Shown here one piece after another: positions 1 to 60,914 of a stretch of 64,000 nucleotides of DNA. Position numbers and translations under genes: made by a program. How positions within the stretch are numbered: position 1 is the stretch's first letter; every line of letters begins with the position of its first letter. Source of the DNA: Metabacillus rhizolycopersici. GTDB taxonomy: Bacteria; Bacillota; Bacilli; Bacillales; Bacillaceae. The stretch covers positions 1-64,000 of the forward strand of contig NZ_JAIQUM010000021.1 of NCBI RefSeq assembly GCF_020075705.1, read 5' to 3'. The notes under the pieces were generated by a model, which did no database searches, was not told the DNA's origin, and saw nothing but the letters and a program-made list of their open reading frames with translations.

Positions 1-124
1 ACTTGCTCATAAGTTTTGTACTATATAGTACGTTTTTGTTAATCGAAATTAACGTTGGCACGCTTGGTTTTGTTTAGTTTTCAAAGATCATCGTGTTGTC
101 GTTTCTCTCAGAAGCGACTTTATT
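1..124 (-). other. rRNA operon leader (16S gene lies off the left edge)
   Basis: Read on the minus strand, this stretch matches the transcribed leader that precedes 16S rRNA in Bacillaceae: a GATCTTTGAAAACTAAAC boxA-like segment, then an AT-rich spacer ending in GAGCAAGT at the window edge. Two strong promoters lie directly upstream. The mature 16S sequence is not visible and presumably starts within some tens of bases beyond position 1. The recognition rests on remembered leader sequences, not on an alignment. Confidence 0.75.
72..90 (-). promoter_or_regulatory. rrn boxA-like antitermination element
   Basis: The minus strand reads TGATCTTTGAAAACTAAAC, close to the boxA of Bacillus rRNA leaders (TGNTCTTTGAAAACT). 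It lies about 40 bases downstream of the predicted start of the second promoter. In rRNA operons boxA recruits the NusB/NusE antitermination complex. Confidence 0.7.
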
Positions 125-153
125 AATATATCACTTTCAAAATGTTAGGTCAA
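125..153 (-). promoter_or_regulatory. rrn promoter P2 (SigA)
   Basis: On the minus strand there is a -35 TTGACC at 153-148, a 17-base spacer and a -10 TATATT at 130-125. AT-rich sequence resembling an UP element lies upstream. Tandem promoters of this kind precede Bacillus rRNA operons. Confidence 0.8.
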
Positions 154-217
154 CACTTTTTTTAAAGTTTTTTAAAATGTGTTTCAAAACATCACCTGTC
201 AATCCGACAAGAATTTA

Positions 218-246
218 ATAATATAATAGATTCATTTAAATGTCAA
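218..246 (-). promoter_or_regulatory. rrn promoter P1 (SigA)
   Basis: On the minus strand there is a consensus -35 TTGACA at 246-241, exactly 17 bases, then -10 TATTAT at 223-218. It lies about 90 bases upstream of the second promoter, as in tandem P1/P2 rrn arrangements. Confidence 0.8.
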
Positions 247-639
247 CAATTAAATCGAATTACCTTAGAGCTTTAAATCCATTACTACTGAATACTACTC
301 AACGTTCATCAGAGAAGAACAGGAAAGACTTGATGAACCCCTTTGAGCGAGGACTTTTTTACGAGTTTCTTCTATATATACATCTTCATTTTAAACCGCT
401 TTGATATTTCTTTAACCAACTTATAACACATCACCTTTTTTAAAGTCTTTATTGTATGATTGCCCATAAAATAAGATTTTCCTTTTTTGTTTGGTATTCT
501 TCGTAAAACCTTTTCCGCAGTAAAAGGGATCCTCGAAAGACTCGCTACGAGCGAATGTCTAGTTCTTACTCGGCGGGAATCACACCCACTATATGTTACA
601 ACCTTGCTCGGACGCTCTCACACTGTGACTGGAAATCCG
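247..639. other. gene-free spacer with a cluster of hairpins
   Basis: No credible gene is seen between the hag terminator and the rrn promoters. The part nearest hag holds three short hairpins: 509-527 (CCTTTT/AAAAGG), about 540-552 (GCTCG/CGAGT) and 573-589 (GTGGG/CCCGC). They could be a structured RNA or the remnant of a mobile element. I do not recognise the family. The stretch 247-500 is AT-rich with no feature I can name. Confidence 0.4.
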
Positions 640-674
640 AAAAGAGACCCTAGTATTTGAACTAGAGTCTCTTT
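640..674 (-). terminator. hag terminator
   Basis: An inverted repeat (AAAGAGACTCTAG ... CTAGGGTCTCTTTT on the minus strand) starts about 12 bases after the stop codon of the last hag exon and ends in a short T run. Confidence 0.85.
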
Positions 675-685
675 CATATCTAAAA

Positions 686-2536
686 TTAACGAAGAAGTTG
701 TAAAACTCCTTGTGGTTGTTGGTTGGCTTGCTTTGCCGCTATGCCTTTCGGTCACAGAATAGACTATATCTTCATCCATGTTTTCATGGAGCTGGGCACT
801 TCGAACAGCTTTTACTACCCTACGAGATTCATAGCCATTGCTTGCGCCTTAGACCGTATTCTCTAGTCGTTGAACCTTCTCCAGAGTTTCCCCACAGGAG
901 CTTGGCTGCTGATTATCCATTGTATCATCTTCATCATTTTCAAACCTTCACGCTGACCGTTTCCAGTTACGTTGTGGTTGATGAAGCTTTAGGAAGTTCC
1001 AGCAATTCACCCAGTTATCCTCTAGCTCGTTACCAAGCTAGACGCCCTTCTAATCATTATCTCAAGAGTTGTAATACTCCTTGAGGCATCTGGTTAGATT
1101 GAGCCAACATTGCTTGTGCTGCTTGACCAAGAATTGAATTCTTAGTTTGTTCCATCATTTCTTTCGCCATCGCGCGAACATTTGCTTTCACAAATGACCA
1201 GACTATATCTTCACCCTCTAGTAATCTACTAATAAGGGTCGGGCACTTCGGATTCACAATGCTGATGACCATTGTTTCACCTACGGATTTCATCATCATA
1301 GCTTTTACCTTAGATGGTCTATCCTAGTCGTTGAACCTTCTCCACTCTTTCGAGACAGGAGCTTGGCTGCTGATTGCCCATATCCTTTCTTTTTTCAAAC
1401 CATCACGCTTGTCGTTTCCAACTACGTTGTGGTAAGAAAAGCTCTAAGGGTTTTCCAGCAATTCACCCGATGATAATCTCTAGCCGTTACCAGCTAGGAC
1501 GACTGTGCTTGTTACTGCTTTAAGCAGCTAAAGCATAATCAACGTCACGGATACGAGATTCCGCAGCAGTTAGGTTTTCAGAAGATGTGTTCAAATTATT
1601 AATTGTATGATCAAGTCTGTTTTGCTTAGCACCCATTTGAGAACGTTCATCAGAAACTAATTTGATGGCAGCGTCAATGTCAGTAATGGCAGCAGTTGAC
1701 GTTGCTGCATCAGTACCTAATGCAGGAACACCACCAGCAAAAAGTGCTGTTGATTGCATATCCGCAAAAGTAACATCTAGGGTTTGGTCTTCATTTGCAC
1801 CAATTTGGAATGTGAATGTTCCATCGGAACCAGCACCGCCTGAACCGTTTAATAATTTTTGAGTATTAAACTCAGTAGTTGTTGCAATACGATCTATTTC
1901 TGCGATAAGATCTGCATTCTCCTTTTGAATCTGTGCTCTATCTTCGGCTGTATTCGTATCAGAAGAAGATTGAACAGCTAATTCACGCATACGTTGTAGA
2001 ATGTCATGAGTTTCATTCAATGCACCTTCGGCAGTTTGAATCATAGAAATCAAATTTGTTATCGCAGTGGCTTTTTATCCTCTGCTTCTTTATGTTTCCA
2101 TAAAGTTCAGGTCATATCTTCATCCTAATAGGATGCCCCGCGCTCGTGGGTGGGTTATTGGTACGGTTCCTCACCACCTGACCGTCACACCTTCCTAACT
2201 ACTATTCTACCGATTCATTAGGCTTGGCTCGGTATTGCCCACCATCCACCTTGAAGATTGGTTTGGGGTTCCACCGAATTCACGGAGTGTTCATCTAAAC
2301 ATTACTGTTTAGAGCGGCATTTCTAGTCTACCGTCTTGAGCATTTTTAGATGCCATATCTAATCCACGAATTTGTCCACGCATTTTTTCAGAAATTGCAA
2401 GACCTGCTGCATCGTCCTTAGCACTGTTAATACGAAGTCCTGAAGATAATTTCTCCATTGATGATTGTTGCGCATTGTTTGCTGCACCCAACTGACGATA
2501 AGTATTCAACGCCGCAATATTATGATTAATTCTCAT
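686..2536 (-). CDS. hag: flagellin, gene interrupted by three group I introns
   Basis: Filament protein of the flagellum, exported by the flagellar type III system. Four exons on the minus strand are 2536-2330 (69 codons, D0/D1 N-terminus MRINHNIAALN...), 2050-1538 (171 codons, central region through SRIRDVD), 1170-1084 (29 codons, MAKEMMEQTKN...) and 730-686 (QANQQPQGVLQLLR and stop). Every junction falls between codons. Joining all four gives 283 residues, a usual flagellin size. Without splicing, introns 1 and 2 truncate the protein soon after NAQDG or RDVD. If only intron 3 stays, a 277-residue protein still ends in QSNQMPQGVLQLLR. Exon joins reproduce the family consensus (NAQDG-ISMIQTAEGALNE and RIRDVD-MAKEMM). 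The start is supported by AAGGAGG nine bases upstream. Confidence 0.93.
731..1083 (-). ncRNA. group I intron 3 in hag
   Basis: This 353-nt intron has P1 pairing the exon end GAUGCCU with the guide GGGCGUC (seven pairs including U.G at the splice site), directly before P2 (CUAGCU/AGCUAG). The P strand (AAUUGCUGGAA) and Q strand (AAUCAGCAGCCAAGC) form P4. The R strand (GGUUCAACGACUAG) and S strand (AAGAUAUAGUC) form P7. A GAAA-capped P9 precedes the terminal G at 731. No ORF or homing endonuclease is present. The first 27 bases are in frame with exon 3 and encode QGVLQLLR-stop, duplicating the flagellin end. The 3' site is inferred from the 8-base tail after P9 shared with intron 2. Confidence 0.9.
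1171..1537 (-). ncRNA. group I intron 2 in hag
   Basis: This 367-nt intron lies between GAU (RIRDVD) and AUG (MAKEMM) and ends in the canonical G at 1171. Its core is nearly identical to intron 3: AAUUGCUGGAA (P), CAAUCAGCAGCCAAGC (Q), GGUUCAACGACUAG (R) and GAAGAUAUAGUC (S). P7 is GACUA:UAGUC. P1 is proposed as GUUGAU with GUCGUC (one U-U mismatch, U.G at the splice site). The P1 loop holds an extra perfect stem GCUUUA/UAAAGC and the in-frame stop that ends unspliced translation at RDVDYALAA. P9 is CAUUUG/CAAAUG. There is no endonuclease ORF. Confidence 0.9.
2051..2329 (-). ncRNA. group I intron 1 in hag
   Basis: This 279-nt intron lies between GGU (NAQDG) and AUU (ISMIQ) and ends in G at 2051. 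P1 pairs GACGGU with GCCGCUC (U.G at the cut, one bulge), directly before P2 (CUAAAC/GUUUAG). P4 is UCGGU:ACCGA and P7 is GGUCA:UGACC, different bases but the same pairings as introns 2 and 3. The Q strand GGGCAAUACCGAGCCAAGC is a classic group I signature. P9 is CUUUAUG-GAAA-CAUAAAG, followed by a further hairpin. It is shorter and more diverged than the other two and has no ORF. Confidence 0.92.
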
Positions 2537-2542
2537 TATAAA

Positions 2543-2579
2543 TTTCCTCCTTGAATATATGAATGATCCACATCCATGT
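2543..2579 (-). promoter_or_regulatory. CsrA-binding leader and ribosome site of hag
   Basis: The hag leader carries ACATGGATGT at 2579-2570, with CACAT/ATGTG pairing that presents GG in a hairpin loop. This is essentially the CsrA consensus. A second GGA lies in the Shine-Dalgarno sequence AAGGAGGAAA at 2552-2543. In B. subtilis, CsrA represses hag by binding two such sites, and csrA lies next door here too. Confidence 0.8.
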
Positions 2580-2639
2580 GAATCTTCTAAATAAGGTATC
2601 CCTCATGTCGGCCGCCATGGGTTCAACCTCTTACTTTAT

Positions 2640-2665
2640 ATATCGTCTCTGGGTGGAATAGTTTA
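2640..2665 (-). promoter_or_regulatory. SigD promoter of hag
   Basis: TAAA at 2665-2662, 14 bases, then GACGATAT at 2647-2640 on the minus strand matches the SigD consensus TAAA-N14/16-GCCGATAT at 11 of 12 positions. It lies about 100 bases upstream of the start codon, leaving room for the CsrA-controlled leader. Confidence 0.82.
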
Positions 2666-2689
2666 ATAGCTTTTAAAGAAAAAAATAAA

Positions 2690-2720
2690 AAAACCTCAAG
2701 TGTTTTTCACTTAAGGTTTT
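2690..2720 (-). terminator. terminator overlapping the csrA stop codon
   Basis: The inverted repeat AAAACCTTAAGTG / CACTTGAGGTTTT is followed by a T run on the minus strand. The last csrA codons and its TGA stop lie inside the stem. It separates the fliW-csrA transcript from the hag promoter. Confidence 0.85.
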
Positions 2721-2940
2721 TGGATGTGCTTTTTAAAATATCCAATACATTCGGAAGAGTGGAAGCCGCTTCACTATTTGATTCCTGTATCGACACATAA
2801 ATTTCCTTCCGATGCACTTCAACTTCTTTCGGGGCGTTTATCCCTAGCTTTATTTGATCGCCTTGAACAGATAGAATCGTAATCTCAATGTTATCGCCAA
2901 TTTGAATCGATTCATTTAGTTTTCTCGTCAAAACCAGCAT
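2707..2940 (-). CDS. csrA: carbon storage regulator CsrA
   Basis: RNA-binding translational repressor. In Bacillus its main target is hag mRNA, and FliW antagonises it. The 77-residue protein opens [20 protein letters not shown], the hallmark of the CsrA/RsmA family. The usual [24 protein letters not shown] core follows at about residues 25-48. The length matches the B. subtilis protein (about 74). AGGAGG precedes the ATG. The gene starts 11 bases after fliW, so the two are cotranscribed. The hag leader downstream carries a near-ideal CsrA site. Confidence 0.97.
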
Positions 2941-2951
2941 ACTTCCACCTC

Positions 2952-3389
2952 CTATTTGCCTACTTTTTCAGGAAACAAATGTTGTTTTGTTTTATATTGA
3001 GGGGTATTCAAGATAATTTGTTTCGCTTGGTTGTTTTTCGCGTTGAGGACGATCGGTGCTTGTAAGTTAGCTGTTGAATCTTCAAAAGGATCTTTAACAT
3101 TTAAGATCATCCACACAACTACATCTTTTTCAGAAGTAAGATTCAAGAGTTGCTTATCACCTTCAGAAAGATCAAATTCATAAGTTGTGAAGTATTGAAA
3201 TGGATTCACAACCACAAAGCCTAATTCAGGTGTTGCCATTGATTGTAAAATCCAAAATGGTGAATCGGTGTCTAATGGTAGTAGGACAAATGATTTTTCT
3301 TCTAAAAAGCCTGGGATTCCATTTTGAAATTGGAGAATGTCCTTTTCATCTGTTTCGATTACTCCGTGGTACTTTGTTGTTGTGCCCAT
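2952..3389 (-). CDS. fliW: flagellar assembly factor FliW
   Basis: Protein that binds free flagellin and CsrA, so flagellin export controls flagellin translation. The 145 residues carry the family signature: [20 protein letters not shown] near residues 18-37, a central [11 protein letters not shown] segment and a conserved [11 protein letters not shown] strand. The start is set by GGAG nine bases before ATG, and it lies only a few bases from the yviE stop, indicating tight coupling. It is followed directly by csrA, as in B. subtilis. Because its partner Hag comes from an intron-containing gene here, FliW activity would depend on splicing as well. Confidence 0.97.
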
Positions 3390-39997: not shown

Positions 39998-42900
39998 TTA
40001 TCTATTATTCACTCTTTTTCTCTTCTGTATAAAAAGAACTATTCCACCTAGACTTATGACAATAAGTCCAACCACTAATAGGTTATAAGTTTCAGTGGCT
40101 GTATTTGGTAGTTCTCCCTTTGCATTGTTACCTTTGGCATTTTTTGAATTCTCATCTGTTTTGACTGGGTCAACAGGACCGTTTACTTCCGAAGGTGTTG
40201 GTTCTGTTGGTTCTTGCTGTTCATCCTTATCCTTTTCGATGTCTTCACCATTTCCACCCTCACTAGGCGGTGTAACTGGACCCTTGTCACTTTCTTCTAA
40301 CACGAAGATAATTGGATTTTTAAGATAATCCTCTGTTCCTTTTATTTGAAACTGGAAGCTTACTTCTTCTTCGTCTTCCGTCAGGAACATGATTTCATAG
40401 TTTCCTATAGGTAGTTTAAAAATATCAAGTTCTTCATCTGAAGAATAGTCAATTAATTGACCTTGGGCATCAGAGCCACCGAAGTAATAAACATTTTCCG
40501 TTTCGTCATCGGTTCCGTGAAGGTCAAACATAGCATCAGCTTCAGGAACATCGTCTGTTTTGTACACATACATGCTTACATCCTTGACCGTACCTTCAAT
40601 CGGTAAAGTTGTTACTTCTGCAAGCAGATAGCCATAATATTCATCTTCTTCGACATTGACTTCAACAATATAGTCGGTAAATGGTGATAGATTCGTAAAT
40701 TGATAGCTTGTTTCATTGCTATCTAGCGCTATTTCTCCAACAGTTTCTTCTCCATCGTTCGTATAGATAGAAAGGTTGTAAGAACCTATACCTTTAGGTA
40801 ACATTGGATCCCATGAAATCGAAATAGTCGTTTCTGTCACTTCATCAATGTACAGTTCTGGGTTCATATCGACTTCAGTATTAACATAAACTCCCCATTG
40901 CTTTAACTGTTCGATAACTTGGGCATTTTCAGCTTCAGTTAGATCAAGCGTAGAAATATTGTGTAACGAAACAGTTTCTAAGCTTGATAAATCAAGTAAA
41001 GGCGTTAGATTAGTAATCATTGTATCATCTAAAATCAATTCAACAAGGTTTTCAAGCTGTGCGATACTTGAGATGTCTTCAATTGGATTTCCACTGACAT
41101 CTAAATGATAAAGGCTATCACTTGACGCTTTTAGTGGTGCTAGATCTTTAATGTTATTGTTTGCTAGATTAATCGAATTTAGTCTCTTTAATGATGATAA
41201 CACCGAGATGTCTTGAATTTGATTGTTATTTAATGTGAGATCTTGTACCTTTTTCAAACCGCTTAAAAAGGAAAGATCCTCAAGGTTATTATTTACGATT
41301 GATAAAGAGAATAGGTTTTTTAATTCGTTTAACATTGCATAACTCTTTATTGGAGATTCCTCGATATAGATATTGGATAGCTCTTTTAGTCCTTTAAGTG
41401 GCGCTAGGTCTAGTGTAAAAGCATTGCTAGCCAAATGAAAATCGACTAAATTTGTGGCGTATTCTAAACCAGTAAGGTCTTTGATATCAGACTCATCCAA
41501 GTAAAGAAAATCAAGTTTTTCTAAATCACTTGCTCTTACGTCACGTTCAAGTCCAAACTGCTCCTTAATGAGAGCTTTCAGGTTGTCATCCTTGAATTTT
41601 ACCTTGTCACCAGTTGGTTCACCCCATGTTGTTTCAGAAGTTGTACTACTTTTAACAAGCTCTTTCTTACCATTGTATGCTTTCACTTCTACTTCATACT
41701 CAGTATTTGGTGCAAGCTTGTCTATTTTCAAATCGACTTCTTCACCTGTTAACGATGTGTGAAGCTTTCCATTCACATAGACTTCATACTTTGCTATTTC
41801 TTGTTCACCATAATAATCCCAGTAAACGTGCATTGAATTTTCTGTTACCGTACCGATATATGCTTCAAACCATTCTTCTTCTTCTTCAGATCCTTCATAA
41901 TCAACATATACACCACGTTGCTCAAGCTGTTCAATAACTTGACGTGCAACAGACCCTTCATTCAGATCTAACTTTTCGTTCCCATATAGTGATACATATT
42001 GAAGCTCTTCTAATTTTAGTAATACATCAATCGTTTCAAGCGCTGAAAAGGCGATATTCACATCTTTTATTTTACTAAGCTGCTGGATGTCCGTAATCGA
42101 CAACAACGGATTTCCATCCGCATAAAGATATTCTAGCTGTGCTACCTTTTCTATTCCTTTAAGGCTTTTAAGATTATTATCATAAATCGATAAAAAGACG
42201 AGGTTCTTTAAAGCTGGAAGTGTTGCTAGATTCTCTAAGTTGTTTCGATCAAGAGCTAGACTATCTAGATTTTGTAAGTCTGCTAGGACAGATAAATCAG
42301 TGATACCCGTTGCCCCTAATGTAAGAGTTGTTAAATTCGTTAGTCCCTTTAATGCAGTGAAATTTGTAATCGGATTATCATCTACAGATAACTCGGTTAA
42401 ATTTTTCAATGCTGCTAATGGTGTTAAATCAGTAATTCTATTTGCAGATAAACTTAATCTTTGAAGGTTTGTGGCTGCTTCAAGGCCAGATAAATCATTA
42501 ATTCGTTTGCGATCAAGATAAAGCTCTTCTAGTGCCTTCATATCACTGACAAAAAGATCACGCTCTAAACCAAATTCAGCTTTAATTGCTTTTTCTAGCT
42601 GTGGATCGCCAAAGACAACTTTTTCGCCATCAGGTGTTGAGAGTGTTTTAAATGCTGAAAAGGTTTTACCGATTTGTTCACCTTTGTCGTTATACGCAAC
42701 AATCTCCACGGTATATTCTGTATTTTGTTGAAGTTCATTAACTGTTAGACTAGTTGTCGATTCAGCTTGGTCAACTTTTGTTACTTTATCAGCAACTTTT
42801 ACCTCGTAATAGTCTACGTCGTCCTCACCTTCGTACTCCCAGCTAATTTTCACACGTTCTTCATTAGCCTTTATTGACGTGATGTACATCTGATAACCGT

Positions 42901-44203
42901 CATCATGAAGGATTGATAAACCTTCACGTTCAAGTGCTTGAACCTCATCAAATAAATCAAAATAAAGATCACCGTACACGACTAATGTCGCTAAATTAGC
43001 TAGCTTTTGTAGCGGTAAAATCGTTGTAAGCTCAGTATAGCTAATATCTAATGTTTCTAGATTCGCAAGCTCCACTATTGGTTCTAAACCTTTTATTGAT
43101 GAATCTGAGAGAATAAGAGTTTTTAAGTTTGTTAAATAAGTTAGAAATTGGATATTATTTCCCTCATAATCTGAAAGATCTAGATACTCTAGATTTGTTA
43201 AGGATTGCAATGCAGATGCATTTTTAATTTCATTACCTGCTAATTCAAGCTTTGTTAAATTAGTCGCCTTTTCTAAACCAGTGATATCTTTCACACCACG
43301 ATAAGACACATCAAGTGTTGTTAAGCTTTCGATATCTGACACGTATATGTCATCACGTTTCAATTTTAGAGCTGCTTTTATCGCCCGTTTTAAAACTAAG
43401 TCAGGGATTGTAACAAGCTCGCCTGATGGCTCCGATGCTACTAGTTTCATCGTCTCTTTGTTTTCGGTTACTTCTTCGGTTACTTCCTCTTTTACTGCTT
43501 CTTTTACGTCTTCTCTTACTTCTTCTTTTACTTGATCTTCTACTTTTTCAATTTTAGGTGCAGCTAGAGTTGTCGTAGCCACCACTGCTTCTTTTATCAT
43601 CGAGCCATTACCAAGCGCGCGAATGCTAATCGAATAGCTTTGCTCACTTTCAAGATCCTTTAGCTCATAAGATGTGACTTGTGCAACTTGATCAACAATC
43701 TTACCATCTAAAACGACCTGGTAATGATCAACATCTTGAACCGCTGACCAAGATACATTGATAGACTGGTCTGTTACGTTTTTCACTTTGACTTCGAACG
43801 GCTCTGCTACTTCTTTTACTTGTTGATAGGTTACGTTAATCGGTTCTGATTGAAGCTCAGTATCATCTGTTTTTTTCACGGCATATGAATATGTCTCACC
43901 TGAAGTCACTTGTTGATCAACTAGTTGGTACGTTCTTACAAGCTTTCCTTCAGAATCTGTTGTTGACTCGATTACTTCTACTGAAGAGATCTTAGTTTCT
44001 TCATTATTTTTTATAAGCGTAAAACTTGCTTCAGCCTGTGATGTAGAGATTGTTCTCCACTGCAGCTGAATACCATCTTCTTTACTTACTGCTGGTAAAA
44101 ATGTCATACTGTCGCTAGCAGCAACAGCTGTTGGTAAAAATGGGATAAATTGAGCTAATAGTAATATAAAAACTAGTAATACAGAAACATAACGTTTAGT
44201 CAA
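39998..44203 (-). CDS. giant LPNTA-anchored leucine-rich-repeat surface protein
   Basis: Large internalin-like wall protein. I choose the TTG at 44203 (GGAGG ten bases upstream; 1401 residues) because it places the signal peptide (KRYVSVLLVFILLLAQF ... AVAA) at the N-terminus. Three modules follow. Each opens with a similar segment (AIKAALKLKRDDIYVSDIES, AIKAEFGLERDLFVSDMKAL, LIKEQFGLERDVRASDLEKL), then 22-residue LRRs (LTKLELAGNEIKNASALQSL type) and a fibronectin-III-like domain. A prealbumin-like domain and Pro/Glu-rich stalk lead to the sorting signal LPNTA, a hydrophobic helix and KRKR tail. LPNTA recalls class D sortases. Likely adhesion. Confidence 0.93.
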   Translation of the reverse strand: MTKRYVSVLLVFILLLAQFIPFLPTAVAASDSMTFLPAVSKEDGIQLQWRTISTSQAEASFTLIKNNEETKISSVEVIESTTDSEGKLVRTYQLVDQQVTSGETYSYAVKKTDDTELQSEPINVTYQQVKEVAEPFEVKVKNVTDQSINVSWSAVQDVDHYQVVLDGKIVDQVAQVTSYELKDLESEQSYSISIRALGNGSMIKEAVVATTTLAAPKIEKVEDQVKEEVREDVKEAVKEEVTEEVTENKETMKLVASEPSGELVTIPDLVLKRAIKAALKLKRDDIYVSDIESLTTLDVSYRGVKDITGLEKATNLTKLELAGNEIKNASALQSLTNLEYLDLSDYEGNNIQFLTYLTNLKTLILSDSSIKGLEPIVELANLETLDISYTELTTILPLQKLANLATLVVYGDLYFDLFDEVQALEREGLSILHDDGYQMYITSIKANEERVKISWEYEGEDDVDYYEVKVADKVTKVDQAESTTSLTVNELQQNTEYTVEIVAYNDKGEQIGKTFSAFKTLSTPDGEKVVFGDPQLEKAIKAEFGLERDLFVSDMKALEELYLDRKRINDLSGLEAATNLQRLSLSANRITDLTPLAALKNLTELSVDDNPITNFTALKGLTNLTTLTLGATGITDLSVLADLQNLDSLALDRNNLENLATLPALKNLVFLSIYDNNLKSLKGIEKVAQLEYLYADGNPLLSITDIQQLSKIKDVNIAFSALETIDVLLKLEELQYVSLYGNEKLDLNEGSVARQVIEQLEQRGVYVDYEGSEEEEEWFEAYIGTVTENSMHVYWDYYGEQEIAKYEVYVNGKLHTSLTGEEVDLKIDKLAPNTEYEVEVKAYNGKKELVKSSTTSETTWGEPTGDKVKFKDDNLKALIKEQFGLERDVRASDLEKLDFLYLDESDIKDLTGLEYATNLVDFHLASNAFTLDLAPLKGLKELSNIYIEESPIKSYAMLNELKNLFSLSIVNNNLEDLSFLSGLKKVQDLTLNNNQIQDISVLSSLKRLNSINLANNNIKDLAPLKASSDSLYHLDVSGNPIEDISSIAQLENLVELILDDTMITNLTPLLDLSSLETVSLHNISTLDLTEAENAQVIEQLKQWGVYVNTEVDMNPELYIDEVTETTISISWDPMLPKGIGSYNLSIYTNDGEETVGEIALDSNETSYQFTNLSPFTDYIVEVNVEEDEYYGYLLAEVTTLPIEGTVKDVSMYVYKTDDVPEADAMFDLHGTDDETENVYYFGGSDAQGQLIDYSSDEELDIFKLPIGNYEIMFLTEDEEEVSFQFQIKGTEDYLKNPIIFVLEESDKGPVTPPSEGGNGEDIEKDKDEQQEPTEPTPSEVNGPVDPVKTDENSKNAKGNNAKGELPNTATETYNLLVVGLIVISLGGIVLFIQKRKRVNNR

Positions 44204-44365
44204 GTTAGTCTTTCCTCCTATAATATTCAATATAATGACAAATTTCATTATAGTTTTTATTTCTGCTTCTGCCTATAGTATTTTTTAGACAAAATTCTAC
44301 ATAAATGAAACCTTTTAACACTACTGTTCGTCAAATAATTGGAAACAATTTTTCACAAAAAAAGA

Positions 44366-48223: not shown

Positions 48224-49756
48224 CTACAACACATGACGTGTCAAATGATTCATAAACTCTTGAAACGCTCTCTGACCTTCATCGTCACGTTTAAATACAC
48301 CCGCATGTTCAAGGATGGCTGCAAAGACAATGCCAACTTCTTTCCGTAAGATGTCATGTACGTTTTCATTGGAAAGTTCCGTGTTCTTTGCTTTAACTTT
48401 TTTGGCCCATTCTAAATGCTTGGCGATATCTTCATTTTTTTCGATTTCTGATTCAAATTCATCCGAAATGAGGCAGTCAGCTAGTACGTTCATTTCCTCT
48501 TTTAACCGTCCAGGTAATACCGCAAGACCCATCACTTCAATTAGACCAATATTTTCCTTTTTAATATGATGTACTTCCTCATGCGGATGGAAAATACCCA
48601 TTGGATGTTCATCACTTGTTCGATTGTTACGAAGAACTAAATCGATTTCGAATAGTTCACCCCTTCTTCTTGCAATTGGCGTAATGGTATTATGGGGTGT
48701 TTCTTCCGTGAATGAAAAGATCTCAACATCTGCATCGCTGTACTTTCTCCAACTTTGTAGAATATGATCCGATAATTCTACAAGTTCATCGCGCTTTCTG
48801 CCTTGTAGACGAACAACGGACATCGGCCATTTGACAATACCTGCTCGTACATCTGGATAATTTTTAAACGTAAATTCCTTTTCAATTTCTGCATTCGCCA
48901 TCGGAAAATCATGGTGACCACCTTGAAAATGATCATGCGTTAAAATTGATCCTCCCACGATGGGTAAGTCTGCATTTGAGCCAAGGAAATAATGAGGAAA
49001 TTGATCAACAAATTGCAAAAGACGTGCGAATGTATCTTTTTCAATTTTCATTGGTTTATGTTCTGCTGATAAAACAATCGCATGCTCGTTATAATACACA
49101 TATGGTGAGAACTGCAAAAACCATTGTTCATCGTTTAACTGAACAGGAATAATCCGATGATTTTGTCTCGCTGGATGATTCACACGACCTGCATAGCCGG
49201 TATTTTCCTTACATAACAAGCATGTTGGATACGAATTTTCCTTCATTTTCTTTGCAGCCATTATAGCTTTTGGATCTTTTTCGGGCTTTGATAAGTTAAT
49301 CGTCATCTCTAAATCGCCGTATTCTGTTTGTACCAGCCACTGTTCGTTTTTGGCGATCCGGTCTGTCCGTATATAATGAACAGCTTTTGAAAACTCGTAA
49401 AAAGCTTTAGTCGATGCTTCTGCTCCTTCTTTTTCATAACACTCAAAAAAACGGCGATTCATCTCAGAAGGCAGTGGAACAAAGCATGCCATTAGATCCG
49501 TATCTAGTAAATCGCGATACGTTACAGTATTTTCTTCTATCCTTCCATTCTCTGCTGCCCAATCTAAAATTTTTTCTAAAATCGCAACAGGAGTATCCAT
49601 CTGTTCCTTCGCTACTTCCACTACCTCAAACTCATCGAGTCTCAATACGCTCAATATTTTATTACGAACAACCTCTATATCCCATTTTGTGATTAATTCT
49701 TTATTTAAACCATACTGTAGTAACCGTTCAATTTGCTCATAAATAGAAATGACCAC
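48224..49756 (-). CDS. galT: galactose-1-phosphate uridylyltransferase
   Basis: Leloir pathway enzyme exchanging UMP between UDP-glucose and galactose-1-phosphate. The 510-residue protein is of the long Gram-positive type (B. subtilis GalT about 513). The catalytic region ILTHDHFQGGHHDFPMANAE lies at about 260-280, with CLLCKENTGYAGRVNHPARQ near 180 and the MGIFHPHEEVHHIKKENIGL near 385. The start is GTG with AAAGGGG upstream. It is last in the run lacZ-galM-galK-galE-galT. Repeats lie beyond its end, and I see no good terminator. Confidence 0.96.
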   Translation of the reverse strand: MVISIYEQIERLLQYGLNKELITKWDIEVVRNKILSVLRLDEFEVVEVAKEQMDTPVAILEKILDWAAENGRIEENTVTYRDLLDTDLMACFVPLPSEMNRRFFECYEKEGAEASTKAFYEFSKAVHYIRTDRIAKNEQWLVQTEYGDLEMTINLSKPEKDPKAIMAAKKMKENSYPTCLLCKENTGYAGRVNHPARQNHRIIPVQLNDEQWFLQFSPYVYYNEHAIVLSAEHKPMKIEKDTFARLLQFVDQFPHYFLGSNADLPIVGGSILTHDHFQGGHHDFPMANAEIEKEFTFKNYPDVRAGIVKWPMSVVRLQGRKRDELVELSDHILQSWRKYSDADVEIFSFTEETPHNTITPIARRRGELFEIDLVLRNNRTSDEHPMGIFHPHEEVHHIKKENIGLIEVMGLAVLPGRLKEEMNVLADCLISDEFESEIEKNEDIAKHLEWAKKVKAKNTELSNENVHDILRKEVGIVFAAILEHAGVFKRDDEGQRAFQEFMNHLTRHVL

Positions 49757-49822
49757 AGGTAGACCCCTTTCTTTAAAAAGAGTAGTAATAGCATGGTGAT
49801 TTACCTTCTCTTTTGTAGACGG

Positions 49823-50812
49823 TTATTTCTCATAGCCATTTGGATGCATCTGGAACCAGTTCCATGCGGTTTCAATTATTTTTTCAAGTGAAGTATAACG
49901 TGGCTGCCAGCCTAATTCTTTTATTGCTTTTGCCTGGGATGCAACAAGTTTTGCAGGATCTCCCGCACGTCTAGGAGCCAATTCTTCCGGAATGCGATGA
50001 CCTGTTACGTTACGTGCTGTATCAATGACCTCTCTTACAGTAAATCCATTTCCATTCCCCAGGTTGTATGTGCCACTCTTGTTATCACGTCGTAATTTTT
50101 CAATCGCTAAAATATGAGCATCCGCCAAGTCTGTTACATGAATGTAGTCACGGACACATGTACCATCATGTGTATCATAATCATCACCAAAAATACTGAT
50201 TTTCTCACGTTTCCCCAATGCCACTTGTAAAATAATCGGAATGAGATGCGTTTCCGGACTGTGGTCTTCTCCTAATTTTCCATCTATATGAGCACCCGCT
50301 ACATTAAAGTAACGCAATACTACATATTTCATGCCATAGGCTTGTTCAGTCCATCTCAACATTTTTTCAATCGCCAATTTTGTTTCTCCATACGGATTCG
50401 TTGGCTCTGTCGGATCATCTTCTAAAATGGGGAAGTTTTTCGCTTCACCATATGTTGCAGCAGTTGAGGAGAACACGATTTTCTTTACATCATGTTTCAC
50501 CATTGTACGCAATAAGCAAAGCGCTCCGTATACATTATTGTCATAATACGTTAACGGATTTTCTACACTTATACCAACAAGTGAATCAGCAGCAAAATGA
50601 ACAACCGCTTCGATCTTGTGATTTGTAAACACATCTTCCAATAATGCTTCATCTCGCAAATCACCGACATAGAGTCTCGCACCGTCTATTACTGCTTGCC
50701 CGTGCCCTGTTTGCAGATTATCGACTACAATCACGTCTTCACCCTTGTCGACTAACTCGGAAACTGTATGACTGCCAATATATCCAGCTCCCCCACAAAC
50801 TAAAATCGCCAT
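49823..50812 (-). CDS. galE: UDP-glucose 4-epimerase
   Basis: Interconverts UDP-galactose and UDP-glucose with bound NAD. The 329 residues have the Rossmann start ILVCGGAGYIGSHTVSELVD, the Ser/Thr and Tyr-X3-Lys active site (FSSTAATYGEAK near 125, NPYGETKLAIEKML near 147), RYFNVAGAHIDGKLGEDH near 170 and DGTCVRDYIHVTDLADAHI near 215. GGAGGGAA precedes the ATG. It lies between galK and galT. It may also feed UDP-sugars to the wall polymer genes, but its position assigns it to galactose catabolism. Confidence 0.97.
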   Translation of the reverse strand: MAILVCGGAGYIGSHTVSELVDKGEDVIVVDNLQTGHGQAVIDGARLYVGDLRDEALLEDVFTNHKIEAVVHFAADSLVGISVENPLTYYDNNVYGALCLLRTMVKHDVKKIVFSSTAATYGEAKNFPILEDDPTEPTNPYGETKLAIEKMLRWTEQAYGMKYVVLRYFNVAGAHIDGKLGEDHSPETHLIPIILQVALGKREKISIFGDDYDTHDGTCVRDYIHVTDLADAHILAIEKLRRDNKSGTYNLGNGNGFTVREVIDTARNVTGHRIPEELAPRRAGDPAKLVASQAKAIKELGWQPRYTSLEKIIETAWNWFQMHPNGYEK

Positions 50813-50832
50813 TATATTCCCTCCCTTTTTTG

Positions 50833-52020
50833 TTAAATTGTTTCACGAACGAGCTCAGTTGCACCGCCACCTACTTGTACAACATAAAAGTCCGCTGTCA
50901 AACCTATTTTTTCTTTGTATTGTTTACCTACTTGTTCTATGAACAAATCAATTTTATTATTTTCTACAATGCTGATGGTGCATCCTCCAAAGCCTGCTCC
51001 CGTCATTCTTGAGCCAATCACACCTTCTTGCATCCAAGCCATTTCGACTAATGCATCTAATTCCTTTCCTGTTACTTCATAGTCATCACGTAACGACTCA
51101 TGCGATTTCTTCATTAATTCACCAAAGCCAGCAATATCACCTTGTTGAAGCTTACTAACTCCTTCTTTTGTACGAGCATTTTCATAAACTGCATGTTTAG
51201 CACGCTTGCGGTCAACAGGATTTTGAATAAGATGCTTATGCTGCTCAAACTGCTCTGGTGTTAATTCTCCTAACGAATAAATACTTAGTTCGACTTGAAG
51301 ATCTTTTAACGCTCTTTCGCATTCCCCTCGACGCTCATTATATTTTGAATCTGCCAATCCTCTTTGTTTATTTGTATTCGCAATAATCAAGGAAGCATCC
51401 TGAAGTCTAAGGGGAGTATATGTAAAATCGAGTGTTTGACAGTTTAATAGAACAGCATGATCTTCCTTTCCCATTCCAATCGCAAACTGATCCATAATCC
51501 CGCAGTTCACACCGATAAATTCATTTTCTGCTTGCTGACTCATTTTCACCATACTGACCATATCTGTTTGTAAAGCAAATAATTCTTTTATCAATACCGC
51601 TGTCACTAATTCAATCGATGCAGAAGAAGATAATCCTGCTCCATTTGGAATATTGCCATAAAACAAGACATCGAAGCCTTTATCGATCACATATCCATGC
51701 TTTTTAAATGTGTGAATGATACCTTTTGGATAGTTGGCCCACTCATGTGATTCTTCATATTGAAGACGATCGAGTGAAAATTCAATCATACCGGTGTTCT
51801 CAGCATTCATCGAATACATTCTCATCATTTTGTCTTCTCGCTTTTGCAAAGCGGCATAGGTTCCGATGCTCAAGGCACATGGAAAAACATGCCCACCGTT
51901 ATAATCCGTATGTTCTCCAATTAAATTGACACGACCCGGTGCGAAAAACACTCGAATCTGTTCATCTGAGCTGTTAAAAATGGTTATAAATTGATTGATT
52001 AGATTTTGATTCAAGTTCAT
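50833..52020 (-). CDS. galK: galactokinase
   Basis: Phosphorylates galactose at C1 with ATP. The 395-residue GHMP kinase has the galactokinase signature GRVNLIGEHTDYNGGHVFPC at about residues 29-48, the ATP loop NGAGLSSSASIELV near 125 and CGIMDQFAIGMGKEDHAVLL near 170. The C-terminal motif SRMTGAGFGGCTI is near 340. TGGGGGATG overlaps the start. galE follows after 20 bases. Length is close to B. subtilis GalK (390). Confidence 0.97.
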   Translation of the reverse strand: MNLNQNLINQFITIFNSSDEQIRVFFAPGRVNLIGEHTDYNGGHVFPCALSIGTYAALQKREDKMMRMYSMNAENTGMIEFSLDRLQYEESHEWANYPKGIIHTFKKHGYVIDKGFDVLFYGNIPNGAGLSSSASIELVTAVLIKELFALQTDMVSMVKMSQQAENEFIGVNCGIMDQFAIGMGKEDHAVLLNCQTLDFTYTPLRLQDASLIIANTNKQRGLADSKYNERRGECERALKDLQVELSIYSLGELTPEQFEQHKHLIQNPVDRKRAKHAVYENARTKEGVSKLQQGDIAGFGELMKKSHESLRDDYEVTGKELDALVEMAWMQEGVIGSRMTGAGFGGCTISIVENNKIDLFIEQVGKQYKEKIGLTADFYVVQVGGGATELVRETI

Positions 52021-52124
52021 CCCCCATTTCTTTCTATTAAATGCTGATTTTAGTGACTTATTATACTACCTCTTCACATTCAATCCTACATGACAGCCTA
52101 GGTATCTCTTTACACTCTTTTCTC

Positions 52125-53171
52125 CTAATCAACTAGAAACGTATATTTTGTCAAAGAAGAAAATAATTGATCCTTCTCTAAAACGTAAGAAGGAAAGTGT
52201 GGGTGATGAATAGCGTCGGGAAGTCCTTGTGTTTCTAAGCAAAGTCCTAAATACTTCTTACTTTTCACTCCGTAAACAGGTAGATCTTCTTGTAATTGAT
52301 TACCTGTATATAAAACGACACTAACTTCATCTGTTTCGACTACGAGCTTACGTCCACTTTCTTCATCCCACATCGTAATTTCTCCATTATGATGGCTGTT
52401 TAAAAGAAAAGAATGATCATATCCTTGGCCAACTAATTGATTTTGTGGGTGATTAGAAATTACCCCTTCTTCGATTTCTCTTCCTTCACGAAAGTCAAAA
52501 ACTGTGTCCGTTACATCTAGCAATTCTCCGGTTGGCAATAGCTGTTCATTTAATTCTACGAACTGGTTACTATCTATTTTCAAGACATGATGTAAAGCAT
52601 CGCGTTTTAAATCACCACTTAAATTAAAATACGTATGATTCGTTAAATTTAATAACGTTGTTTTATCTGAGTTTGCTTGATAATGAATAAGGAACTCATT
52701 ATCGTTATTTAGCAAATAAGTTATTGTTACCTGAACGGTTCCAGGATATCCTTCCTCTCCATCGGGACTCGTATAAGAAAACTGGATCCCCACTTCCTTC
52801 TCGTTCTTTAGGATGACAGCATCCCACAGAACATGACTAAACCCTTTTGAACCACCGTGAAGATGATTTCCGTTGTCATTCATTTCTAACTCAAATGATT
52901 GTCCATCCAGTTCGAATTGTCCGCCTTTTATTCGGCCAGATACACGCCCAACAACTGCTCCAAAGTAAGGAGAATGCTTCTCGTAGTCTTCCATGTTGTT
53001 GAAACCTAAAACAATATTTTCATAGTTTCCATCTCTATTAGGCGTTACTATTTTTGTAATAACACAACCGTAATTTAAACAGGTAATTTCTATATTTTGA
53101 TCATTTATTAACGTATATGCGTCTACATTTTGTCCATTTATTTCACCAAACGGTTTCTGAACGATCCTCAT
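52125..53171 (-). CDS. galM: aldose 1-epimerase (galactose mutarotase)
   Basis: Converts beta- to alpha-galactose, the form used by GalK. The ATG at 53171 (GGAGGGG five bases before) gives 348 residues. The family pattern is present: GAVVGRVSGRIKGGQFELDG near 70 and MNDNGNHLHGGSKGFSHVLW near 95. LLNLTNHTYFNLSGDL near 170 contains the catalytic His, and LCLETQGLPDAIHHPHFPS near 310 contains the catalytic Glu. It follows lacZ after a gap with a terminator, so it may also have a promoter of its own. Confidence 0.96.
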   Translation of the reverse strand: MRIVQKPFGEINGQNVDAYTLINDQNIEITCLNYGCVITKIVTPNRDGNYENIVLGFNNMEDYEKHSPYFGAVVGRVSGRIKGGQFELDGQSFELEMNDNGNHLHGGSKGFSHVLWDAVILKNEKEVGIQFSYTSPDGEEGYPGTVQVTITYLLNNDNEFLIHYQANSDKTTLLNLTNHTYFNLSGDLKRDALHHVLKIDSNQFVELNEQLLPTGELLDVTDTVFDFREGREIEEGVISNHPQNQLVGQGYDHSFLLNSHHNGEITMWDEESGRKLVVETDEVSVVLYTGNQLQEDLPVYGVKSKKYLGLCLETQGLPDAIHHPHFPSYVLEKDQLFSSLTKYTFLVD

Positions 53172-53281
53172 TTTTCCCCTCCAAAAGTACAATACAATTG
53201 CTTATCAATTAAAAGTGATTGGTAAATTTCAAACATAACTAGAAAAAAAGCTGCAGCCTTTAACGCCCCTAGTGGTCAATT

Positions 53282-53319
53282 CTGAAAATGGGAAAAGAAC
53301 AACATTCTCTTCCCATTTT
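53282..53319 (-). terminator. terminator after lacZ
   Basis: AAAATGGGAAGAGAA-TGTTG-TTCTTTTCCCATTTT on the minus strand, about 30 bases after the stop. The 3' stem ends in TTTT. It may attenuate read-through into galM. Confidence 0.8.
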
Positions 53320-53347
53320 GATAACAGTGCCTTAGTGAGAGCTTCTT

Positions 53348-57317
<3,970 letters not shown>

Positions 57318-57318
<1 letters not shown>

Positions 57319-58238
57319 TAAATTTCCCCTCCTCTTGATAGTTTTATTTGGAAGAAACTTATAATCCCAACAATAATGGTAATGATGTATGCTGCTGCAG
57401 ATGCATAACCAAATTGAAAACTTTGGAATCCAAACTGGTAAATGTACATGACAGGTGTATTCGTTGCATTATTAGGCCCACCCATCGTTAACAAAGATGG
57501 CTCTGTAAATAATTGAATCGTCCCGATTGTAGATAAAATCCCACAAAACAGCAGGATAGGTTTTAACATCGGAATGGTAATCTTGAAAAACTGTGTAAAC
57601 TTATTTGCTCCATCAATTTCTGCAGATTCATATAACGACTCATCTATAGCAGTTAATCCTGCTAATAAAATAATTGTATTGTATCCTACCCATCTCCACG
57701 TTACAGCAATAATGATTAATATCTTTGACCAGAAGGGGTCACTGAACCATAGAATCGGATCGATATGAAAAAGCCCTAATAAGTAATTCACCATACCGTA
57801 TTGCTCATGGAAAATAATTGAAAATACAATTGAATAGGTTACTAAATCTATTAAAACAGGCAAAAATATCATCAATCGAAATAATGGCTTTGCTTTAATA
57901 AATTTGGAGTTTAATATAACAGCCAGTAATGAACCTAAAATAAGCATGATAGGTACTTGTATGATTAAAATAATAAAAACATTAGATAGAGATTTCCAAA
58001 ACAAACCATCTGTTAGTATATTTTTAAAATTTTCTAAGCCAATCCACTCAGATGTATTTCCTTGAGTAGACGTGAATGATAAATACAATGATTCAATTAT
58101 TGGATACACCATAAAAATAATAAACACGATGAAAAATGGAGATAAAAATAGATATGGAACTAATATCTTCTGATTCCACTTTTTCTTTCTTACTGTAATC
58201 TTTGGATCTTTTTTACTCACAACAGTCGTAACTTCCAT
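57318..58238 (-). CDS. sugar ABC transporter permease (MalF type)
   Basis: Partner permease of the MalG-type protein encoded next. The 306 residues carry a short basic N-terminus, then helices starting ILVPYLFLSPFFIVFIIFMV, and the EAA loop ESAEIDGANKFTQFFKITIP near residue 210, followed by MGGPNNATNTPVMYIYQFGF. AGGAGGTTGAG precedes the ATG. No ATPase gene is in this operon. Related Bacillus importers use the shared MsmX ATPase, which probably applies here. Confidence 0.95.
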
Positions 58239-58295
58239 TTCTCAACCTCCTATAAATGAATAGGTGTTCAACTTACAAACACCTATTCTTCTATA

Positions 58296-59564
58296 TTATT
58301 CGTTTATATCGAGATTCGTTGTTTTAGAAATTGATGTAGCCGCAGTTTCCATCGATTTATCTACGTCTTTACCTTCTAACACTGCACCAATCATGTCATT
58401 AACTGGTTTCGTTGCATCTAACATAATTGGACCGTGATCCATTTTTTCAATATTTGAAGTTAGCCCTGCGAAAAAAGGATATACTTCCATTTCAAAATAG
58501 TCATTATATTCTTTAAATACTTCACTCTGATAGAAAGGAGTATATGAAGGGAATAGTCCGTAATTTAACATGACAGTTTGTCCTTCTTCTGTCGTTAAAA
58601 CGTATTCAATAAATTTAAATGCTGCGTCTGCATTTTTTGACTGCTTTGATATAGTTAAAATTGAGCCACCTAAATTAGCCTGTGTATTCCCACCTTCTTC
58701 AAAGGCTGGTAAAGGAACAATTCCCCAATTTCCTGCTTGTTGTTCAACAGAATGCTGCAACGTACCTGCATACCATACTGGTAAAATAACTGACGCGATT
58801 TTTTCATTGTTTAGCTCTGTAATACGGCCATTCCAATCTTTCACACTAATCGCAACATCTTCATCCTTCATCTCTTTTTGCAGTAAAAGTGCTTCTTTTG
58901 ATTCAGGTGAATTCACATTGATCTTTCCGTCTTTCACATATGTACCACCTAGTTGGTTTAGGAAAACTTCGTAAAGATCAAAATCGTTTGTATAACCTGT
59001 CATCGTTGTTTCTGGTATCGCCTTTTTCAATTCCTTTCCAGCTTCTATATAATCTTCCCACGTTTTAATTGATGCTATATCAATTCCAGCCTTTTCAAAA
59101 AGGTCTTTTCGATAATACAACGCAGATGGACCTATATCCCAAGGCATTGCGTATACTTTTCCATCTTTTGAAACAGATTCCCATGAGGACTCGAGAAATT
59201 TATCCTGATAGTCCTTCGTTTTTTCTGTCAGATCAACAAATTGATCAGGGAACTTATTTAAAAATGCTGGAAAATCCCTTGCTTGTGTTTGAATAATATC
59301 AGGTGCCCCTGTTCCTGCCGCTAAAGCTGGTGTCACTTTTGAATACTCTGGATCTACTTGTAAAATTTCCACTTTAATATCTGGATACTTTTTATTAAAT
59401 CCTTCAATCTGGTCGGTTAGTGCGTTGGCTGCAGCATTCCATGCCGCTACTTTAATTGTTGTTTCGCCTTCAGAGGTATTACTTTCTTCTGAACTCCCAC
59501 CACCGCAAGCTGCTAAAAATATGGATGTTACAAAAAATAAGGACACTAATACTAATTTTTTCAC
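58296..59564 (-). CDS. sugar-binding lipoprotein of the galactoside importer
   Basis: Extracellular solute-binding protein (family 1). The GTG at 59564 (AAGGGGAGAG upstream) gives 422 residues and places the lipoprotein signal (KKLVLVSLFFVTSIFLAACG, lipobox LAAC) at the N-terminus. The mature part has the family features: TTIKVAAWNAAANALTDQIE, the hinge-region MPWDIGPSALYYRKDLFEKA near 145 and GGSILTISKQSKNADAAFKF near 300. It is first in the operon, directly downstream of two 18-bp operators and a cre-overlapped promoter. Substrate is inferred from lacZ and gal genes downstream. Confidence 0.94.
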   Translation of the reverse strand: MKKLVLVSLFFVTSIFLAACGGGSSEESNTSEGETTIKVAAWNAAANALTDQIEGFNKKYPDIKVEILQVDPEYSKVTPALAAGTGAPDIIQTQARDFPAFLNKFPDQFVDLTEKTKDYQDKFLESSWESVSKDGKVYAMPWDIGPSALYYRKDLFEKAGIDIASIKTWEDYIEAGKELKKAIPETTMTGYTNDFDLYEVFLNQLGGTYVKDGKINVNSPESKEALLLQKEMKDEDVAISVKDWNGRITELNNEKIASVILPVWYAGTLQHSVEQQAGNWGIVPLPAFEEGGNTQANLGGSILTISKQSKNADAAFKFIEYVLTTEEGQTVMLNYGLFPSYTPFYQSEVFKEYNDYFEMEVYPFFAGLTSNIEKMDHGPIMLDATKPVNDMIGAVLEGKDVDKSMETAATSISKTTNLDINE

Positions 59565-59594
59565 TTTTCTCACTCTCCCCTTATTTATTAAATT

Positions 59595-59612
59595 TGTGGT
59601 CACGTGACCACA
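59595..59612. promoter_or_regulatory. operator O1 for the LacI-type regulator
   Basis: Perfect 18-bp palindrome TGTGGTCACGTGACCACA with a central CG, as usual for LacI-family operators. It lies about 30 bases before the binding-protein start codon and is identical to O2, with centres 34 bp apart. Confidence 0.88.
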
Positions 59613-59624
59613 TTGCTTTTAAAA

Positions 59625-59650
59625 ATATTGTGGTCACGTGACCACAATAT
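59625..59650. promoter_or_regulatory. operator O2 for the LacI-type regulator
   Basis: The same 18-bp palindrome as O1 at 59629-59646, extended here by ATAT / ATAT to a perfect 26-bp palindrome. A weak promoter could also straddle it (TTGAAT ... CAATAT). Confidence 0.88.
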
Positions 59651-59674
59651 TCAAAAAATAAGATAAAATTTTTG

Positions 59675-59694
59675 GCTTGAAAATATTTTCAAGC
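59675..59694. promoter_or_regulatory. 20-bp AT-rich palindrome in the galactoside operon leader
   Basis: GCTTGAAAATATTTTCAAGC is a perfect palindrome just after the predicted transcription start (about 59697, minus strand). It differs in sequence from the two CG-centred operators, so it may bind another regulator or form an RNA hairpin. Confidence 0.6.
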
Positions 59695-59703
59695 TCTATT
59701 TAA

Positions 59704-59732
59704 AATATAAATCATCCTGAAAACGCTGTCAA
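59704..59732 (-). promoter_or_regulatory. SigA promoter of the galactoside operon
   Basis: Minus strand consensus TTGACA at 59732-59727, exactly 17 bases, TATATT at 59709-59704. The -35 overlaps the stop codon of the lacI-type gene and the cre site. Confidence 0.8.
59718..59731. promoter_or_regulatory. CcpA cre site
   Basis: TGAAAACGCTGTCA matches the cre consensus TGWAANCGNTNWCA at every position. It covers the -35 box, so glucose repression by CcpA would block the promoter. Confidence 0.88.
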
Positions 59733-60730: not shown

Positions 60731-60864
60731 TTGTTCTCCTTTCTCCTCATACAGTCCAAAATACTTTTTACAGTGGATGTTGATTTATCGAACTTACCTT
60801 TATAAGTAATACTATACAATACTATTGATTTGATATGTATAAAAAAGGAGATTTTCTGTGATAA

Positions 60865-60914
60865 GGGACTGTCCCCTACCGCTTTAAAGTGGTAGGGAAC
60901 AGTCCCTTAAATAC
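60865..60914 (-). terminator. terminator after melA
   Basis: AAGGGACTGTTCCCTACC / GGTAGGGGACAGTCCCTT is a very strong hairpin at the melA stop codon. The T run after it is weak, so it may act as a processing or stabilising hairpin too. Confidence 0.75.

Follow-up and report, generated by a model that had tools for sequence, protein, structure and literature searches.

The window, by which we mean the whole 64-kb stretch of DNA that was analysed, holds at its left end the flagellin gene hag, adjoined by csrA, fliW and flgL-like and flgK-like genes. The gene lies on the minus strand, runs from a start at 2536 to a stop at 686, and is broken into four coding pieces. An earlier note on this DNA had proposed that hag is split by three group I introns, and this proposal held: a search with Rfam model RF00028 (gathering score 50 bits) gave one match at each of the three places where an intron had been expected, at 2088-2339 (64.9 bits), 1179-1532 (90.4 bits) and 739-1065 (70.7 bits), each of them spanning model positions 1-253 of 253, and no further Rfam match reached the gathering threshold anywhere in the 64-kb window. 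By this covariance-model core all three are group I introns, with self-splicing predicted, and the P4 and P7 strings that had been named for them are present in the intron sequences. A homing endonuclease ORF is absent, stop-free stretches within the introns reaching 51 residues at most, and a tandem repeat scan of window positions 1-3000 found nothing.

Exon 1 (2330..2536, on the minus strand like everything that follows) comprises 69 codons ending in KNAQDG and matches Pfam Flagellin_N 1-67 (E 2.2e-21). It is followed by the 279-nt intron 1 (2051..2329), in which read-through gives RLEMPL and a stop, by exon 2 (1538..2050; 171 codons, ISMIQ to RIRDVD, matching Flagellin_N 68-137 and Flagellin_C 2-50) and by the 367-nt intron 2 (1171..1537), in which read-through gives YALAA and a stop. 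Next come exon 3, in its corrected extent (1102..1170; 69 nt, or 23 codons, MAKEMM to QAMLA), the correspondingly corrected intron 3 (731..1101; 371 nt) and exon 4 (686..730). The first three pieces match directly adjoining stretches of the Pfam profiles (Flagellin_N 1-67 and 68-137, Flagellin_C 2-50 and 51-79), which supports the first two junctions, NAQDG/ISMIQ and RIRDVD/MAKEMM, just as they had been placed, but not the site of intron 3, because the third piece was cut at the end chosen in the earlier note; introns of similar length in relatives also support these two junctions. With exon 3 corrected to 69 nt, all exon lengths are multiples of three and all junctions remain in phase 0, as had been claimed, and each of the three introns does end in G immediately before the next exon. 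The further claim that each 5' exon ends in a U opposite a guide G is borne out for introns 1 and 2, where the exons end in GGU and GAU (read from the sequence only), but fails in relatives for the residue that had been picked at intron 3.

The flagellin leader (window 2537-2580, minus strand) carries a CACAUGGAUGUG hairpin and a AAGGAGGA ribosome site, an arrangement of the kind known from leaders that bind CsrA; the genes csrA and fliW themselves are found directly upstream of hag.

Our first sample of relatives consisted of 77 flagellin loci found by scanning named genomes, in which each exon was searched by tblastn around the best exon 2 match. Nine of these loci have a gap of 359-366 nt at the intron 2 site, two more (L006 and L057) lie on contigs that end inside an intron at this site, and a single locus (L018) has a gap at the intron 1 site, of 278 nt as compared with 279 in the window. 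L107 and L124 seemed to have gaps ahead of exon 2, but since the frame continues through them these are not introns. The closest host by flgK and flgL among the 77 loci, Metabacillus litoralis (L064; 79% and 80% protein identity), has a flagellin with no gap at the intron 1 and 2 sites and no match to any of the three introns. Intron 3 is widespread: of 397 genomes sampled evenly across the order, at least 69 contain it, 68 of these with the duplicated tail described below, and this count is a lower bound because only near full-length matches among those listed were fetched and classified. Near full-length copies of intron 1 occur in 14 of the same 397 genomes at E <= 4.5e-93, while 19 match at E <= 1e-20. 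When the class was sampled, 34 of 398 genomes matched at E <= 1e-40; 32 of these 34 loci hold intron 3, while L208 has intron 2 alone and L213 is truncated. Pooling the hits and removing identical copies left 110 distinct classified copies of intron 3, all at the same site, where classification required MLA or MLS followed by Q, E or K.

The earlier note had regarded three introns in one bacterial hag as an arrangement not previously described. The arrangement itself stands, but it is not unique to the window, since flagellin genes with introns 1, 2 and 3 recur in six other sampled genomes (G380, G237, G338, G359, G109 and G003, the last with part of intron 2 reading N). At the other extreme, intron 3 stands alone in 42 of the 84 intron-3 genes, the sites of introns 1 and 2 being without a gap.

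The 5' end of intron 3 had been placed after QSNQMP (1084/1083), which is 18 nt off; we predict that the splice site lies after MLA (1102/1101). Here the exon's GCU and the first intron base, C, are predicted to pair with an internal guide GGGC (1044..1047), with a U-G wobble at the splice site. In minimum-energy folding of 101 distinct segments, obtained from the 108 of 110 classified relatives that have a GGGC guide, 98 show the exon U at the MLA site paired with the guide G, as compared with one for the residue at the end of QSNQMP. In the two copies without GGGC (L203 and L205) the exon codon is TCT and the guide GGGA, so that exon and guide have changed in a compensatory manner. The codon before the corrected site is GCT in all 84 intron-3 genes versus 38 of 82 genes that lack intron 3, and among the 110 pooled copies 108 have GCT there and two have TCT. 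The extension of P1 varies between copies in a way that fits each copy's own partner: P1 strands folded with their own partners reach -10.50 kcal/mol versus -8.83 with swapped ones (sd 0.20; 0 of 5000 permutations; 72 distinct of 82 genes), although this test ignores kinship, which must inflate it, since pairing at the QSNQMP site likewise beats swapped partners (-8.26 versus -7.57, 0 of 5000). Compared directly, P1 at the MLA site beats the QSNQMP pairing in 63 of the 72. A splice site after MLA gives a spliced product of 277 aa rather than 283, without a six-residue duplication.

The corrected boundary brings out what is the most unusual property of intron 3, and one that the earlier note overlooked. 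The first 45 nt of the intron (1057..1101), within the predicted P1 stem-loop, encode in frame QSNQMPQGVLQLLR followed by a stop, which is a second copy of the tail encoded by exon 4, QANQQPQGVLQLLR followed by a stop. When exon 3 is read unspliced it runs in frame into this spare tail, whereas intron 2 has none. Both peptides look like complete flagellin tails: QANQQPQGVLQLLR ends 39 of the 82 flagellin genes without intron 3, and the 37 residues that exon 3 and the spare tail jointly encode in the unspliced form can be aligned over their full length, up to the last residue, with the C-terminal part of flagellins of known structure (E 7.3e-11). In the genes that have intron 3 alone, the unspliced frame thus reaches a complete tail. 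The peptides read from the 56 distinct copies of intron 2, which share one insertion site, are of another kind, 31 being YALAA before the stop and all but one of the rest a similar peptide of five or six residues.

The spare tail is present in 106 of the 110 distinct classified copies of intron 3, and the exon 4 tail in all 110. In the four copies that lack the spare tail (L155, L167 at 4348, L196 and L200) the sequence in its place is unlike any tail, and since one of them, L167 at 4348, is the third intron of the three-intron gene in G359, the spare tail cannot be indispensable. These copies fall in three separate places on a tree of 164 intron cores, which suggests that they arose by loss. 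Most copies of intron 3 were found with queries containing the spare tail, so that a bias toward tail-bearing copies is possible; against this, the body of intron 3 alone exceeds 300 nt. Six damaged or partial hits were set aside from the 110. In three of these (L145, L183 and L213) the 5' part of intron 3 is missing or rearranged and the exon 4 tail is readable, with no stop directly after it in L213, and two others, the second gene of L018 and the second hit of L204, are decayed. The former (L018:11274-11884, a second flagellin of Oceanobacillus caeni) is a decaying copy: introns 2 and 3 survive only as remnants, exon 3 is broken and exon 4 contains a stop. The sixth, L165, has from about 2140 on the minus strand an exon 3 fragment joined to foreign upstream sequence and then intron 3; in this gene fragment without upstream exons exon 4 is intact and the spare tail has two stops, as one would expect if it is translation that maintains the spare tail.

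If both tails serve as protein, one would look for the marks of selection on codons. When each spare tail was compared with its own exon 4 over codons 7-14, pS was 0.77 and pN 0.13 (81 distinct pairs, from 82 of the 84 intron-3 genes, two without a spare tail having been dropped); the two copies are therefore old, but the peptides they specify have stayed almost identical. For codons 7-14, pN/pS among spare tails is 0.124, versus 0.372 for codons 1-6, which hold a P1 strand; among exon 4 copies the respective values are 0.165 and 0.068. Changes were also counted along the intron tree in 106 copies, which were picked by their tail pattern, so that the pattern shaped the set, although there is no near-miss among the four left out. 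Codons 7-14 of the spare tail have undergone 54, 10 and 184 changes at positions 1, 2 and 3, and those of exon 4 have undergone 43, 9 and 131. The third-position share in the spare tail, 0.742, is reached by none of 286 windows of the intron core that have at least 20 changes (maximum 0.701). Residues 9-13 show no amino-acid change at all, either in the spare tail or in exon 4 (106 copies). The last residue of spare tail and exon 4 is R/R in 95 of the 106 copies, Q/Q in five, G/G in four and K/R in two; thus, lineages that end in G or Q instead of R have the same residue in both tails in nine cases out of nine (G in L168, L170, L182 and L202; Q in L150, L161, L173, L175 and one copy of L167), and only the two K/R pairs disagree. 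Changes in the two tails also coincide at residue 8 (seven and five changes, joint 7) and at residue 14 (six and six, joint 6), which could also be explained by conversion taking place between the copies now and then. The simplest reading of these patterns is that both tails are translated and selected as protein.

As for the origin of the introns, introns 2 and 3 belong to one family and intron 1 to a separate one, an intron 3 profile having given no match to intron 1. Three unrelated introns were ruled out by the kinship of introns 2 and 3, evident both in sequence matches and in the core tree. In that tree of 164 cores (midpoint rooting), 53 of 54 intron 2 rows form one clade among the intron 3 rows, the single stray (L181) sitting on a long branch. 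Since introns 2 and 3 are kin and only 69 nt apart, one intron lineage probably colonised both sites. Across 53 of the 84 genes (31 were dropped), the distances between copies of intron 3 show no significant match to those calculated from a conserved stretch of exon 2 (Mantel r 0.12; a value this high arose in 182 of 2000 permutations); between the window and L106, for example, the intron 3 core is 96.6% identical and the exon 2 segments 70%. Such a mismatch of intron and host is compatible with the intron having moved together with its flanking sequence, or with flagellin genes having recombined with one another. A third flagellin of Fredinandcohnia onubensis, which is intronless, has a tail (L074:11542-11586) that starts like the spare tail and ends like exon 4, and this hybrid is possibly the footprint of clean intron loss by recombination between the two tails.

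One may consider explanations of the spare tail in which it is not translated to any purpose, but is a relic of insertion whose likeness to exon 4 is maintained through gene conversion or RNA pairing in P1. Part of the spare tail is indeed the 5' strand of P1, and the joint changes with exon 4 at residues 8 and 14 could stem from conversion, the tracts of which can be short. However, synonymous differences between the two copies are near saturation while the amino acids mostly agree, the period-three pattern of changes is unmatched in the intron core, and codons 7-14 are better kept as protein than are the codons holding the P1 strand. We therefore regard a relic of this kind as unlikely. Conversely, intron 3 might no longer splice, in which case the spare tail would be the true end of the gene and exon 4 a fossil. 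The unspliced frame of the 42 genes with intron 3 alone does reach a complete tail; nevertheless, exon 4 reads as a tail in every one of the 110 copies, its residues 9-13 have stayed unchanged through 131 third-position changes in codons 7-14, and both P1 and the core are retained. Lost constraint looks otherwise, as in the second flagellin of L018, with its stop in exon 4 and its broken exon 3. On the constraint seen in exon 4 the dead fossil was rejected, and we consider it very unlikely.

Two other possibilities concern the splice site and the repeat itself. Were splicing to occur after QSNQMP, it would add six residues to the product (QSNQMP-QANQQP). In the window AUGCCU could pair there with GGGCGU, as read from the sequence, and the pairing at this site does beat swapped partners. 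Yet its last residue pairs with the guide G in only one segment as against 98 for the MLA site, the last base there is not U in 14 of 82 intron-3 genes, the four copies without a spare tail still pair exon GCU and intron C with GGGC (their loop being shorter or unrelated), and it is splicing after MLA, by contrast, that gives the canonical tail length. QSNQMP was thus rejected as the 5' splice site on P1 pairing and codon conservation in relatives, and we give it hardly any credence. Alternatively, the 45-nt direct repeat could serve movement, recombination between its copies deleting the intron cleanly and leaving the gene intact. The hybrid tail of the intronless F. onubensis flagellin and the lack of a significant match between intron and host distances speak in favour of such a role, but clean loss alone would not maintain constraint at the level of codons, and recombination should be rare between repeats so diverged (pS 0.77). 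As an account of the spare tail this has in our opinion only a slight chance of being right, and it is not exclusive with an intron 3 that has two outcomes.

We therefore return to the reading in which both tails are used. We think it likely that the message with intron 3 encodes a complete flagellin in both of its forms, with the exon 4 tail when spliced and with the intron's own tail when the intron is retained. Ribosomes arriving before splicing would read from exon 3 into the P1 loop, end at the stop codon within intron 3 and release a complete flagellin. Were the RNA to fold first, P1 would form between exon GCU with intron C and the guide GGGC, extended by pairing of spare tail codons 2-5 with the bases just upstream of the guide, after which intron 3 would leave and exon 4 would supply the tail. 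Splicing and translation would thus compete for the 5' end of intron 3, and whichever of them wins, a complete flagellin would result. Introns 1 and 2 would still have to be removed, because they have early in-frame stops and no spare tail. A spare tail would suit the last site in particular, where the missing part is only 14 codons. In more general terms, we lean towards the view that these are widespread ribozyme introns whose splicing is optional, the intron acting as an alternative last exon and both messages giving a working flagellin with slightly different C-termini. If this is true, splicing, which in other flagellin introns is temperature-dependent, would decide which of two filament proteins is made, rather than whether the cell is motile. 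Since introns 2 and 3 are similar and flank an exon of 69 nt, in-frame skipping of that exon may be a further possibility.

Group I introns in flagellin genes are known from thermophilic Bacillus and Geobacillus, where they are described as self-splicing in a temperature-dependent manner (Hayakawa and Ishizuka 2009, 2012, cited in PMC3984707 and PMC4853749). The introns described here share with them the type of intron and the host gene; several introns per gene and an intron-borne tail, in contrast, are unmentioned in those citing passages (PMC3984707, PMC4853749). A similar architecture is reported for Orf142 of the Staphylococcus phage Twort, which has three group I introns, the second and third highly similar to one another around a short exon, and for which exon skipping has been reported (PMC10136302). 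As in Twort, three group I introns occur in hag and the related introns 2 and 3 flank a short exon, here of 69 nt; Twort Orf142 differs in being a phage gene with a middle exon of 23 nt, and a duplicate tail is not mentioned in the part of that account on which we draw (PMC10136302). The nearest parallel for the tail itself comes from fungal mitochondria, in which mobile elements in atp6, atp9, cox2 and nad3 carry a second C-terminus, each with an endonuclease ORF, the cox2 case also listing a group I intron, and in which the resident tail of atp6 and cox2 is not expressed (PMC3630166). There too, the insert brings an in-frame copy of the host gene's C-terminus, with the resident copy downstream. 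However, as far as that description goes, intron 3 of hag differs in having no endonuclease ORF and in being a predicted ribozyme whose splicing could reconnect the resident tail, and constraint acts on both hag tails, unlike atp6 and cox2, where the resident one is silent (PMC3630166). Among the matches listed in a search of open-licence literature (titles and the starts of abstracts), there was neither an intron-borne flagellin tail nor a flagellin gene with three introns.

Group I introns in bacterial protein-coding genes are thought to be selected against, translation interfering with the folding of the intron (PMC3984707). By carrying the piece of protein that would otherwise be cut off, intron 3 would escape this cost. 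The unspliced frame of a gene with intron 3 alone ends in a complete tail, so that gene finders are likely to see an ordinary gene. With this reading it becomes possible to test how a ribozyme intron is able to establish itself in a gene of high expression, and whether bacteria can use a retained intron as a coding outcome.

Several minor observations may be added. Within hag, an 80-codon frame (window 1057-1299, minus strand) runs from the interior of intron 2 through its 3' splice site and exon 3 into the spare tail; it is probably due to chance, although it would yield a C-terminal fragment of flagellin from unspliced RNA. Elsewhere on the minus strand of the window, 39998-44248 encodes a surface protein of 1416 residues with leucine-rich repeats, fibronectin type III domains and an LPXTG anchor, and 48224-62242 holds genes of sugar use, namely those for galactose-1-phosphate uridylyltransferase, a family 2 beta-galactosidase and a family 4 glycosidase. 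In another of the sampled genomes (G010:C80:61665-63242; hits L091, L097 and L101) there are three group I intron matches within 1.6 kb, one of them over the cut-off, and the frame before one of these introns reads GAQMIMLAD, presumably part of a ribonucleotide reductase-like protein.
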